Assembly: GCA_946811185.2 (NCBI GenBank)
Contig: OX328096.1
Coordinates: 45,522,252 to 45,586,251, forward strand
Reading direction: 5' to 3'
From: Hippopus hippopus
Lineage: Eukaryota; Mollusca; Bivalvia; Cardiida; Cardiidae
DNA length: 64,000 nucleotides
Part shown: positions 27,801 through 33,800 of the stretch, one piece after another
How the letters are laid out: each line of letters opens with the position of its first letter
How positions within the stretch are numbered: the stretch's first letter is position 1
Notes under the pieces: model-generated
Told to the model about the DNA's origin: nothing
What the model saw: only the letters and a program-made list of their open reading frames with translations
Database searches by the model: none
Position numbers and translations under genes: made by a program

Positions 27801-30800
27801 CCAACAAAATGCCTTATCAACTGGCAGACAGGTGAAAAGGGTGGGAAATTACGTTCATATATCCTTGTGGTCTCCTTTATTGGAACAGAATTTCGTTCGA
27901 TTACCACTATATGAAGTGGAATGCACAATTTTTGATTCGGTTATAATTAGGCACAAAAAATCAAGTGTGACTTTCACTGACAAATTCAACCTGAAACCGA
28001 TGTGGAATAAGAAGTTGTTCCTGAGTATGAGGAGTCTTTTAGACAGGCTTATATTCATATTTACACAGTATTTATCTGTTTCATGAATTTCTTTGCCATG
28101 TATCCAAGAAAAATAGAGTAATTTTGTTCAAATGCAGAGATTTCTTGGATACTACTTTGACCTACTTTTGGTTTCTTCTTTCACTTAAAAAATTTTATTG
28201 TCCCTAGCATGGTCGTTTAATACAAGATTAACTGTATTTTGCTTAGTGTCTGAATCTTTTGGAAATTATCATTCTGAAAAAAGAGGGTAGCCGAAATACT
28301 GTAGTAGATTTTATCTTGTTGTCCGAAAGTGTGTTCGAAATAATAAGGGTAAAATTCAACAAATTTACATCTGTTTACAGCACTGTAATGGGTCAAAACT
28401 GTGGTAGATATTAAGTTTCCCCGTCTTTTCTATCTTGAAATACATGTTTTAGATAATTTTCTACATTCTTTAGACTTAAAAAAGTAGCTTTCCAGTACCA
28501 GTTAAGTCATAGGTCAAATCAATGGAATAGATCCAAGATCAGACTGCACATTCTGTTCAGTTTGATGTCTATCCATAAACCATTCACCAATGCTTTGAAA
28601 ACAGCCATCTTGCCATCGGCGGAGTTAATCAAAACAACCAAAATATAGAACATGCCATCTTTCAACAAGACTTCACGCCTGTCGCGGGTACATATGCGTT
28701 TGCAATAAAATTTCGCTAAGGGGTATGATGCAACATGTAAATCATTTGAAGCGAGAGGGTTGTAAAGCAAATGTTTCTTGTCCAAATTTATGATTGTTTT
28801 ACCCTAAGAAATTTATTATCATATCCCGACTGCCAGTCAACACAAAATGATCATGCAGTAAGCCAATATCATGCCTGCTTTACATTAGCTGACAGTGCCT
28901 TTTTGCGTTTAATAATGGCTTTTTCTAGAAAACTTGGGCATCTGTGTCACATGTTTTGTGTAGTCAGCAGAAAAATATATTCGGCTGTTCTAATAAAAAA
29001 ATTCCCTGCATCCGAAATAAGAAAGAATGCATACGTTGATTAATGCATTAATTTTAAATATAAACATTCTGACCAAGTTCCAAAAGTATTGGGCTGAAAA
29101 TGTGGTCGCTGGAGTGCACACAAAGTTTTTCTAAGGTTTAGCCCAGTGACCTACTTTTGGAGCTGACGTGACCCAATATCGAAATTTCCAAGATATCATC
29201 ATGACAACATTCTGACCAAATTTCATGAATAACTGATAGAAAATGTAGCCTCTAGAGTGCACACAAGGTCAGTGTTGACTCCTGGACGACACACAACAGA
29301 CACGACACAATCACAAAAGCTCACCATGAGCACTACATGTGAACTATAAATGCCTTGCTCTACAAACATAAAAAATGGCCCAAATACAAAGATTTGGTTT
29401 GTAATGGACTGATCTTTCATTATTTAATTGAATTAGTGGACTAACCAACCCATGAAAATATCACAAGTATAAATATGGAAATAGTTGAGCTAAACTATCA
29501 ATCAAAAAAATTTTCATAGTTTTATGAAGGAACATGTGCTTGTCTCTAGACTATATTATCAGTATGAGAGAACAATACTGTACAGAATGTAAACTTCTTA
29601 CCTTGGAATGATTTGCACTCATGTTAAATCCTGGACTAGGTGAGGGCGAACTAGAGTTGGTGGATGTTGGTGTAGTTGAAAGTTTATCCGAAAACCTGTC
29701 TTCATCATGAGGTGGAGATGTTGTTGTTGTCTTTAAAGGATCTGAAGATAAGAAGATTTACATTTCAGCAGATGTTTGTCTTCTACAACTTTAAAGAACA
29801 GAAAAAAAAAAGACATTGCAATTTTAAAGCCATTATGATAAGAATATCTCAATACATATTGACAAAGTAGGTCGACATCAGACTGCATTTTCTGTAAAGT
29901 ATATCTTGATCTTAACTATCAGTAAGGAATTTTAGCTACATGGCATTCTTATAGAGTTTCCCTTCAACATCTCTGTATCTGGTGATAAAGTTCTACCAAA
30001 AATTGAAATGATGAAAGTAGAAGCAGCATCCAGACCTGTATGTTTTTTTTTTAGTTTAGTTGTTGACAACACTGTTCATATTGTTACGGGAGACCACTCC
30101 TTCATGCATGGCTTCATCCTGATTTAAATACAATACCTAATAACAACTGCGTTAGGGAGAATTCTCTATAGCTCAGTGGTTATGGTATTGGCCTTTTGTC
30201 CGGGCGTTCTAGGTTCGAATCCTGCCCGGTCCCTGTATTTCTGCTATGCATTTGTTCATTTGTTTCTTTGTTACGGACTTTGTTCGTAAGATGGGGGCTT
30301 GTCCCGGACTGGCCATTGAGCCATTAATCCCACTTGTTGTCCATAAACTGACTTCCTGCCTAATAAGGCTTTGAGTCATCAATAAATGATGACTTTAAGA
30401 GGGGGTGTGTTACGGGAGACCACTCCTTCATGCATGGCTTCATCCCGATTTAAATACAATACCTAACAACTGCATTAGGGAGAATTCTCTTTAGCTCCGT
30501 GGTTATGGTATTGGCCTTTTGTCCAGGCATTCTAGGTTCAAATCCTGCCCGGTCCCTGTATTTTTCCTGCATTTGTTCATTTGTTTCTTTGTTACGGACT
30601 TTGTTCGTAAGAATATATTCTCATACCAATATTCAGACAGAAAAGCCTTGTTCATAATAACAATCTATGATAACAGCATAACTCTGCACCAATGATTCAT
30701 AAATTCAATTATCCTGATATGTCATAATACTATCCTCAATATCAACAGATCCAAGACAAAGAAACCAGTACGTCTTTTTAATGTCTTAGACTGATCTTAG

Positions 30801-33800
30801 TGTGACCTGGTCAAGAATCTAATCCCTCAATATCCTTTGCTCAGGCACCTATAATACAAACCATGCAACTTCAGTCTGAAGAAAGGCTGTACATACTGCA
30901 ATTTCCAAGCTTTGAAATTTGTGTAAAATACAGTGTAGATGCAAGATCAAACTGCACACTTTTAAAGTGTTTACCTCTTATCTTGATCTAAACTGTCAAA
31001 AAGCAACTTCAGTTGTGCTGAGCACTTTAAGGAATAACCAAAGTTACCTGGAATATCATCCAAATCTAACTCATCGTACAAAAATTCATTTTCTTCGAAA
31101 CCAGGTTCCTGATTGGACTCAACATAATACTCTATGTCATCTCGGAGAGTTTTGATCTGAAAAATACAATGATAAATGTTAAATGACAAAAATCAGCAGT
31201 CTACACTAAAACAAGGCATTTCTGTTAATCATCTGGCTCTTTTTACTGAAAGTCTCTTGCCACTACGAAACAAGCTACTTTCAGACACTAACTAATTACT
31301 AGTGCAGCTTTCTATATGGAGCAAGATTTGAAGGAAAGGAAACTCTCTTTCTTTGTGATAAAAAAATGTAGGAAAAGCAGCTTGTACAATTAACAAGCAA
31401 ACAATCTTTCTCTACACACACTGTTTTCAACAGCATTTGACAGCAAGAGTGTGCAAGGTACTAATTGTATGGCAATTGGTTATCAACATTTACTTGTGAT
31501 GAAACATTTCAACAAGTGATCAAGACCAAGGAAACTTTGTATCTGAACATGGTTCTATCATATAGAAAGATTTAAGTTTGCAAAACAACTTTTTGCAAGC
31601 AAAAATCTTCACTAACACTTTCCCGAACAATTGTGTGTTTTAACTACCCTAAGGTAAAAAGCTTTCTCAAAACAATGTGGGAAAGGAGAAAATTCTGGTA
31701 TCCAACATTTTCTCTTTTTCTCTTAATGTTTTCTATCCTTTCAGAGACAAATTATACCATCCGAGCCATATTTAACATGTCATCTACAAATTCAAGCCAT
31801 GTGGCACATGTATAATTTTATTGTCTGGTAAGAATTTAGTAATATTGTATGAGCAACACAGCTATTATACATTGTTGATCTTACGAATGAAGTCCGTAAC
31901 AAAGAAACAAATGAAAAACAAATGCATAGCAGAAATACAGGGACCGGTCAGGATTCGAACCTAGAACGCCCAGACGAAAGGCCAGCACCATAACCACTGA
32001 GCTATAGAGAATTCTCCCTAACACAGTTGTTAGGTATTGTATTTAAATCGGGATGAAGCCATGCATGAAGGAGTGGTCTCCCATAACACACCCCCTCTTA
32101 AAGTCATCATTTATTGATGACTCAAAGCCTTATTAGGCAGAAAGTCTGTTTTTTTTGACAACAAATGGGATTAATGGCTCAATGGCCCATACCGGACGAG
32201 CCCCCATCTTACGAACAAAGTCCGTAACAAAGAAACAAATGAACAAATGCATAGCAGAAATTCAGGGACCGGGCAGGATTCGAACCTAGAACGCCCGGAC
32301 GAAAGGCCAATACCATAACCACTGAGCTATAGAGAATTCTCCCTAACGCAGTTGTTAGGTGTTGTATTTAAATCGGGATGAAGCCATGCATGAAAGAGTG
32401 GTCTCCCGTAACAATGAACATACCTGTTCAAGAGGAATGGCATCATTATCTACCATTCGCATGATTGTTTCCAATTTCTGTATATGAAACTGATGTTTTT
32501 CCTGAACACCTTTAAGCTGCTCAAATCTGTCATTTCTCTGAAAAAGATAGAAAAATAATTACTGATACATGAGGCTAAATTATAATAAATTCAAATCTCA
32601 GACATATTAACTGGATCAGACCTATTTCATAGAGTTTTTCACTGCTCTTGATACATATCTAAAACTACAATAAAATTTAATAAAGATAATTATATCAAAC
32701 AGAAATATTCTAAAGTAATTTATGACCAAACTATTACAACTCGACCCCTAGGCAAAAAAATAGAAACATGGAGCAGACTTGTCCCATAAGATCTTAGCTT
32801 GACATAAAGCTCTCACAGAATAAAAACAAGCTGACATACATTTTAAGAATAACTTGTATATAACTGTGCATTGCTGATGTAGCTTGAAATCAGATAACAT
32901 CTTAAATCCTCCTTCCTACCATTCTGGATTAGTGTGGCACCATAGCAGTGTTGACATAGATAATCAAAGCGCTAACACACTGAAGGCAGAGCATTTCTTT
33001 TCTGGCTCCAAATACATGCTACTAATTGGTGTGTTCTATGATTTTTTTCCTTGTAAACTAATATAAATCAAAATGGAAAGTTCTACAGAGAACTCCTACT
33101 CTTGAGATTAGGGTATGAGTTTACCAGCGTCCGAGTTCTCCAGCAACAAGCTATGTTATTGTATAAATGTGCCAGATGGTGGAGAGGTGTTAAACCAGGC
33201 ACGGCTTTTGTTTTATTTAAGCTGAAAATCTTTTGTTATCTTAAATCAAAAAGACAACTGAAACATGATGTTTTAATTTTTTTCAGAGAACATACAGTAT
33301 CAAGTTGAACTGCTTTGTTTGAATATCATTGGCAGAACTGGCTGTATGTATGTATCTTTAAACTACTTTAGAAGTCAATATTTTACATTCAATATTGCGT
33401 AAGAGTCGGCCCAACCCAACGGTCCATAAATATATTCTGACACCTACATAGAATAGGCTAAGTGATCTAGATAAATATCTGGAGAAAAAAAAAAAGGACA
33501 TTTTCTTATGACATTGAAAAATTGTTCAGAAAAAGAGCAATTGCTAATAACAAACAACAGCACCTTTCCTCAAGGTCAATAAAAGCTGTCTTCTGCAGGA
33601 ATATACGAAGTGTTTGGAAAATAATGGTTTACTGCTATGAAAGATTAATCCTTCCAGAGCCACAGGCAAAAAAAAAGATGCTTTTGTTAATCACAGATAA
33701 AGATCAGACTACACAGAGTTTACAATCTGATCTTTAATCTATATCTTTTGCTTGTTTAGTTAAGCCTACGAGATTAAAATCTCAGTTTCATCTGATTGTA

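Follow-up and report, generated by a model that had tools for sequence, protein, structure and literature searches.

What should be made of a retroelement whose long terminal repeats (LTRs) carry the boxes of a tRNA gene promoter? This question is raised by two short insertions in a 64,000-nucleotide stretch of DNA (hereinafter the window; contig OX328096.1, 45522252-45586251) from the 1,068,471,763-base genome of the bivalve Hippopus hippopus (Bivalvia, Imparidentia, Cardiida, Cardiidae). We conclude that they are almost certainly two insertions of a Helenus-type terminal-repeat retrotransposon in miniature (TRIM), i.e., a small non-autonomous LTR retrotransposon with tRNA-derived A and B boxes in its LTRs. 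The LTR pairs, the primer site for tRNA-Pro, the purine tract, the 4-bp target-site duplications and the boxes at tRNA spacing are all directly visible, as is the abundance of the family.

Anatomy of the two copies

Copy 1 is a 531-bp element on the forward strand (30082-30612), with an LTR of 210 bp, an interior of 116 bp and an LTR of 205 bp; copy 2 is a 535-bp element on the reverse strand (31879-32413), with the corresponding parts measuring 207, 118 and 210 bp. The two are approximately 92% identical, inverted relative to each other, and built in the same order: LTR, tRNA-Pro primer site, non-coding interior, purine tract, LTR. With short LTRs, a short non-coding interior and total lengths of 531 and 535 bp, both lie within the size range of TRIMs (less than 1 kb). 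The primer site opens at the very first base past the 5' LTR, where an 18-mer that we take to be the tRNA-Pro reference, and that also occurs in seven published papers, is matched at 15/18 positions in copy 1 and 17/18 in copy 2; the chance of at least 15/18 matches at a fixed place with one 18-mer is P = 3.4e-7. At the other end of the interior, the purine tract AAGAGGGGGTG immediately precedes the 3' LTR in both copies. The target-site duplications read ATAT/ATAT around copy 1 and TCAT/TCAA around copy 2.

All four window LTRs contain tRNA-type A and B boxes, each pair spaced by 43 nt, with a single change in the A box and a single change in the B box of the copy-1 3' LTR. The window has five occurrences of a loose pattern for the two boxes, four in these LTRs, against an expectation of 0.04 per window from 100 first-order Markov simulations. 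The initial annotation of this DNA, made from its letters alone, had set out this plan and its coordinates, including a spacerless tRNA-Pro site matching at 15/18 and 17/18, as well as boxes at tRNA-gene spacing in the LTRs; both claims are borne out. The parts of the two copies are as follows (window coordinates):

30078..30081 and 30613-30616, no strand: 4-bp target-site duplication ATAT of copy 1
30082..30291, forward: 5' LTR of copy 1
30123..30130, forward: TATA-like TTTAAATA in the copy-1 5' LTR, read from the sequence; upstream of the expected start site, approximately 40 nt before the A box
30131..30190, forward: imperfect palindrome across the A box of the copy-1 5' LTR; fold z -3.63 at 105 nt, but ordinary when folded shorter (z -0.18 at 80 nt, z -0.96 at 92 nt)
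30169..30179, forward: A box TAGCTCAGTGG of the copy-1 5' LTR
30194..30197, forward: TTTT between the A and B boxes, present in both copy-1 LTRs, not at this place in the copy-2 LTRs
30212..30222, forward: B box GGTTCGAATCC of the copy-1 5' LTR
30292..30309, forward: primer-binding site of copy 1, 15/18 to tRNA-Pro
30292..30407, forward: non-coding interior of copy 1
30369..30399, forward: hairpin shortly ahead of the purine tract, its stem 9 bp long and its tip holding AATAAA (30381-30386); z -3.90; found at the same place in copy 2
30397..30407, forward: polypurine tract AAGAGGGGGTG
30408..30612, forward: 3' LTR of copy 1; A box 30492-30502, B box 30535-30545
32207..32413, reverse: 5' LTR of copy 2; A box 32329-32319, B box 32286-32276
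32089..32206, reverse: interior of copy 2; primer site 32206-32189, 17/18 to tRNA-Pro
31879..32088, reverse: 3' LTR of copy 2; A box 32004-31994, B box 31961-31951; private TTTTT

Copies across the genome

The family is abundant in the genome to which the window belongs. Contig 34 of this genome is mitochondrial, and over 99% of its length the ND4 encoded there is 100% identical to that of Tridacna derasa, with 76% for the second-best match. A search with the LTR yielded 1821 first-look candidates, the best 40 of which were scored and gave 41 matches, all with E <= 5.9e-71; the interior yielded 261 candidates, the best 40 of which gave 40 matches. As the unscored candidates are unconfirmed, 1821 and 261 do not amount to copy numbers; moreover, the scored set represents the best rather than a random draw. 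From it we assembled a sample of 76 sequences, namely copy 1 (L001), 37 other loci matched by the LTR, 37 loci matched by the interior and window copy 2. These resolve into 78 clusters which, writing A, B and C for types of LTR and I for the interior, comprise 36 A-I-A elements, 14 single A LTRs, nine C-I-C and two B-I-B elements, 11 with mixed LTR types and six tandem or incomplete arrangements.

The target-site duplications could be evaluated in 61 of the 78 clusters, the 17 that lack two intact outer LTR ends being excluded. The 4-bp duplication is exact in 46, agrees at three of its four bases in eight and at fewer in seven, with approximately 0.24 exact cases expected by chance. By class, it is exact in 24/30 A-I-A, 10/13 single A, 5/6 C-I-C, 2/2 B-I-B and 5/10 mixed clusters. 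One of the single LTRs is in truth half of an element (L007, with AGAT on both sides) that was split by an insertion; it is entered as one LTR and a separate fragment, and thus as a miss. Copies lacking LTR pairs or 4-bp duplications are, therefore, not the rule in this sample.

The signals themselves were counted over LTRs and interiors matched from end to end, i.e., 97 full type-A LTRs and 60 interiors. The primer site agrees with tRNA-Pro at 18/18 positions in 25 interiors, 17/18 in another 25, 16/18 in seven and 15/18 in three, and 48/60 interiors end in an exact AGAGGGGGTG. The exact A box is found in 72/97 and the exact B box in 71/97 type-A LTRs; among the 52 that have both, the spacing is 43 nt in 46. 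The initial annotation had asked for a genome search for full copies, solo LTRs and target-site duplications, and had named two outcomes that would speak against it: a tRNA-like part missing from most members, and a lack of further LTR-interior-LTR copies. The search returned many such copies, exact duplications around 46/61 clusters and single A LTRs in 14/78 (including the half of L007), and the box counts place the tRNA-like part in the majority of full type-A LTRs. Identity between the 5' and 3' LTRs of 28 canonical A-I-A elements ranges from 0.915 to 0.976 (median 0.956) and reaches 0.986 in a C-I-C element (L070); since no compared pair is identical, very recent insertions are absent from the sample.

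Relationship to Helenus and other TRIMs

Helenus was described by Kojima in 2024 (PMC10886601) and denotes TRIMs of fungi, plants and animals with tRNA-derived sequence in their LTRs. Fifty-one families are reported from pteriomorph bivalves, with many families coexisting per genome; tRNA-Pro is among the bivalve primers, and the animal families make 4-bp duplications. Solo LTRs are reported, as are tandem arrays in one fish family. The same source proposes the name TRIMp3 for TRIMs of RNA polymerase III (Pol III), while marking the Pol III transcription of Helenus as unvalidated. The elements of the window resemble these descriptions in having two LTRs with boxes A and B, a primer site for a tRNA 3' end, a purine tract and 4-bp duplications; as far as sequence goes, every defining feature of Helenus that we examined is present. 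The initial annotation was right in seeing a TRIM with tRNA-type boxes in its LTRs, but the design, for which it could name no described case, is already published as Helenus, or TRIMp3 (PMC10886601).

The difference lies in the host. The molluscan hosts in Table 1 of PMC10886601 belong to Pteriomorphia, and an origin in a pteriomorph ancestor is proposed there, whereas the present host is a member of Cardiida. The main text of that paper contains no word starting with Tridacna, Cardiid, Veneri or Heterodont, and does not state which heterodont genomes were searched in vain. Literature searches for Helenus retrotransposons (from 2022 on), which gave that paper and a meeting report, and for Tridacna repeats, where none of the 15 titles listed out of 4935 concerned a giant-clam TRIM, likewise yielded no heterodont Helenus, which is weak evidence of absence. 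Thus, judged by published description only, this is a new family of the kind described in 2024, apparently in a new host branch. As a heterodont lies outside the pteriomorph list, the proposed origin would need to be placed further back, to have happened more than once or to have been joined by transfer. What is new here is the heterodont host, along with evidence for one framework bearing alternative tRNA-like cassettes, some of them in mixed insertions between exact duplications. The many genome copies also furnish material for the question of whether retrotransposition of the LTR type can be driven by Pol III in an animal.

Two other groups of TRIMs invite comparison. The biv-TRIM of bivalves (Satovic et al. 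2019, PMC6934838) has terminal repeats of 202-218 bp and occurs in solo and tandem forms; its interior measures 77-80 bp and lacks a clear primer site, but has mostly a GGGGAGA tract as well as a TGATCCCAAAGGAC segment that is conserved. Compared by description only, the interiors here are longer (116 and 118 bp), end in AGAGGGGGTG and have a clear tRNA-Pro site; reading of the two window interiors did not find the exact TGATCCCAAAGGAC. On these described features, membership in biv-TRIM is ruled out. Cassandra of plants is presented in PMC7215508 and PMC10886601 as a TRIM with a 5S rRNA promoter in its LTR and tandem LTR-interior arrays, its terminator being described inside the LTR (PMC10886601). 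Our elements are like it in combining a TRIM with promoter sequence of a Pol III small-RNA type in the LTR, and in forming tandem LTR-interior arrays; they are unlike it in that this sequence is of the tRNA rather than the 5S rRNA type, in that 79/97 type-A LTRs have no TTTT past position 80, and in that Cassandra belongs to plants. Three short stretches of the element were not found in published text.

Alternative LTR cassettes and mixed elements

An alignment of the LTR types over 23 LTRs indicates that they are much alike over their first approximately 110 bp and differ in the tRNA-like body, which is short in type A and approximately 20 bp longer in types B and C. Type-A and type-C LTRs nevertheless flank the same interior. 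To elaborate, in one type-A LTR set against one type-C LTR, the first 84 bp agree at 74/84 positions, the stretch holding the A box at 22/24, the B box at 11/11 and the last 52 bp at 48/52; the intervening parts fall to 9/19, with a 20-base gap, between the boxes, and to 11/17 past the B box.

Mixed LTR types occur in 11/78 clusters, ten of which have testable ends. Exact duplications surround five of the ten (L008, L014, L040, L044 and L066), some of which are three-LTR arrays; three more agree at three of four bases (L002, L004 and L054), one would match if shifted by a single base (L024), and one does not match, with two of four bases (L015). In four of the five mixed three-LTR arrays the two outer LTRs agree in type and the inner one differs from them (L004, L014, L044 and L054, the exception being L041). 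A second type of interior, 77-80% identical to the first and about 100-107 bp long, was seen directly before a type-B LTR in L008, L014, L044 and L054.

Reverse transcription of one RNA produces identical terminal LTRs, and recombination between neighboring insertions pairs unlike duplications. Exact duplications around mixed elements, therefore, do not fit recombination between two neighboring insertions in those cases. Three candidate routes would fit: (i) addition of a unit from a one-LTR circle; (ii) gene conversion; (iii) integration of a mixed concatemer; the data favor none of these over the others. The mixed insertions are relevant to the formation of TRIM arrays, a process for which template switching and intrachromosomal recombination have both been proposed in the case of Cassandra (PMC7215508).

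The words mosaic, chimer and exchange are absent from the main text of PMC10886601, which leaves cassette mosaics unmentioned. These mosaics are the most interesting part of the system, and are here described only. We give roughly even odds to the following reading: the putative Pol III promoter is a cassette that can be exchanged, the same framework accepting either the A or the B/C body; mixed elements arise by addition or conversion after insertion, or by concatemer integration; and, within bivalves, Helenus has a greater age or mobility than one would gather from the list of pteriomorph hosts. If true, coexisting families of Pol III TRIMs would evolve by swapping promoters with one another.

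Mechanism and the choice between Pol III and Pol II

How might such an element multiply? Pol III, with TFIIIC on the boxes, would start inside the 5' LTR, at a predicted site that precedes the A box by approximately 10-20 nt, and its transcript would read through the primer site and the interior, into or past the 3' LTR. tRNA-Pro would then prime reverse transcription in a replication of the LTR type, which the sequence supports, with the reverse transcriptase and integrase presumably supplied by an autonomous LTR element, probably Gypsy-like, and integration would leave the 4-bp duplications. The tRNA-Pro site and 4-bp duplication would be compatible with mobilization by a Gypsy-type element, and PMC10886601 has animal Helenus mobilized by such an element. 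From LTRs without TTTT the transcript would end in flanking DNA, as those of short interspersed nuclear elements (SINEs) do; the private TTTTT that each window copy has in its 3' LTR could end the transcript there.

On sequence evidence, we think it fairly likely, though well short of assured, that the LTR boxes act as a working Pol III promoter. The chief rival, which we consider unlikely but still to be reckoned with, is an ordinary TRIM driven by RNA polymerase II (Pol II) that carries a dead tRNA or SINE fragment in its LTR, the boxes being a functionless relic. Two observations speak for Pol III and against a relic. First, in the type-A and type-C pair compared above, the B box is preserved in full despite the differing cassette around it, albeit in one pair of copies. 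Second, AATAAA or ATTAAA occurs in just 1/97 type-A LTRs, leaving 96/97 without a poly(A) signal, whereas AATAAA stands before the purine tract in 55/60 interiors; there it could truncate a transcript made by Pol II, whereas one made by Pol III could not be shortened in this way, and we accordingly count it for Pol III. Further, the spacing of the boxes counts for Pol III, and between LTR position 81 and the purine tract copy 2 has no TTTT, a state equaled by 2% of dinucleotide shuffles.

Several points weigh on the other side. The lack of TTTT over this stretch is unusual to a modest degree only, the LTR part alone being equaled by 4.5% of dinucleotide shuffles and by 6.7% of plain ones; 18/97 type-A LTRs do have TTTT past position 80; and as AAAA is also absent there (0/97), T is not alone in being scarce in such runs. 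Of the 18 aligned LTRs of types B, C and D, 16 have TTTT inside the cassette, between the A and B boxes, as do both LTRs of copy 1. The TATA-like motif TTTAAATA, approximately 40 nt before the A box, would suit Pol II as well. Finally, tRNA finders see no tRNA here: ARAGORN recognized none in the window LTRs or in those of 38 loci, and the Rfam tRNA model none in the window LTRs or 10 loci. A recognizable tRNA in the LTR is thereby ruled out, the check with a tRNA finder that the initial annotation had proposed being negative.

Independence of the copies and their genomic setting

Could the two window copies be one insertion duplicated in inverted orientation, and hence not independent evidence? 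We regard this as highly improbable. In its favor, identity between the two 5' LTRs (0.976) exceeds that of either one to the 3' LTR of its own element (0.956 and 0.947), and the left flanks of both copies have TGTTCAT near the LTR. However, the target-site duplications differ; the right flanks have no similarity, nor do the left flanks beyond TGTTCAT; and the differences among the LTRs are nearly all private to a single LTR, the sole informative column (116) grouping them by copy rather than as 5' and 3'. As the differences are nearly all private, the closeness of the 5' LTRs reads as uneven decay and not as duplication. The flanks thus rule out an inverted duplication of one copy, the shared TGTTCAT notwithstanding. 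The least probable alternative, to which we give next to no credence, is a tRNA-derived SINE family taken for an LTR element, with tandem dimers mimicking LTR pairs: it would account for the tRNA-like boxes and for the single LTR units being common (14/78 clusters, with the above proviso on L007), but not for the 4-bp duplications, the tRNA-Pro site directly past the LTR or the purine tract directly before the second LTR, and a SINE of the same window has a 14-bp duplication instead.

Both copies are intronic in a minus-strand gene, two exons of which encode a C-terminal portion of the Not3 domain of Pfam (E 3.7e-20) and match chains of CCR4-NOT subunit 3 in PDB (best E 3.5e-26):

32424..32537, reverse: CNOT3 exon, the start of copy 2 lying 10 bp beyond the 5' splice site of this exon
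31048..31156, reverse: next CNOT3 exon, between the two inverted copies

The layout of inverted copies around the exon at 31048-31156 could favor double-stranded pre-mRNA or exon circularization.

The SINE, at about 24869-25160, is headed by a tRNA-Thr at 24873, detected by ARAGORN and Rfam and the only tRNA that ARAGORN reports in the window; its duplication AAGTCTATCATTTG occupies 24855-24868 and 25161-25174. The spacing from A to B box in this tRNA head is 44 nt, versus 43 nt in the TRIM LTRs. Another pattern of A and B boxes falls at about 160-235 on the minus strand (start 228); it looks tRNA-like but, with no LTR match there, is not a Helenus LTR. Diverged long repeats with an internal offset of approximately 165 bp, in both orientations, lie at 21660-23680, 34628-35397, 38767-39189 and 53942-54820.

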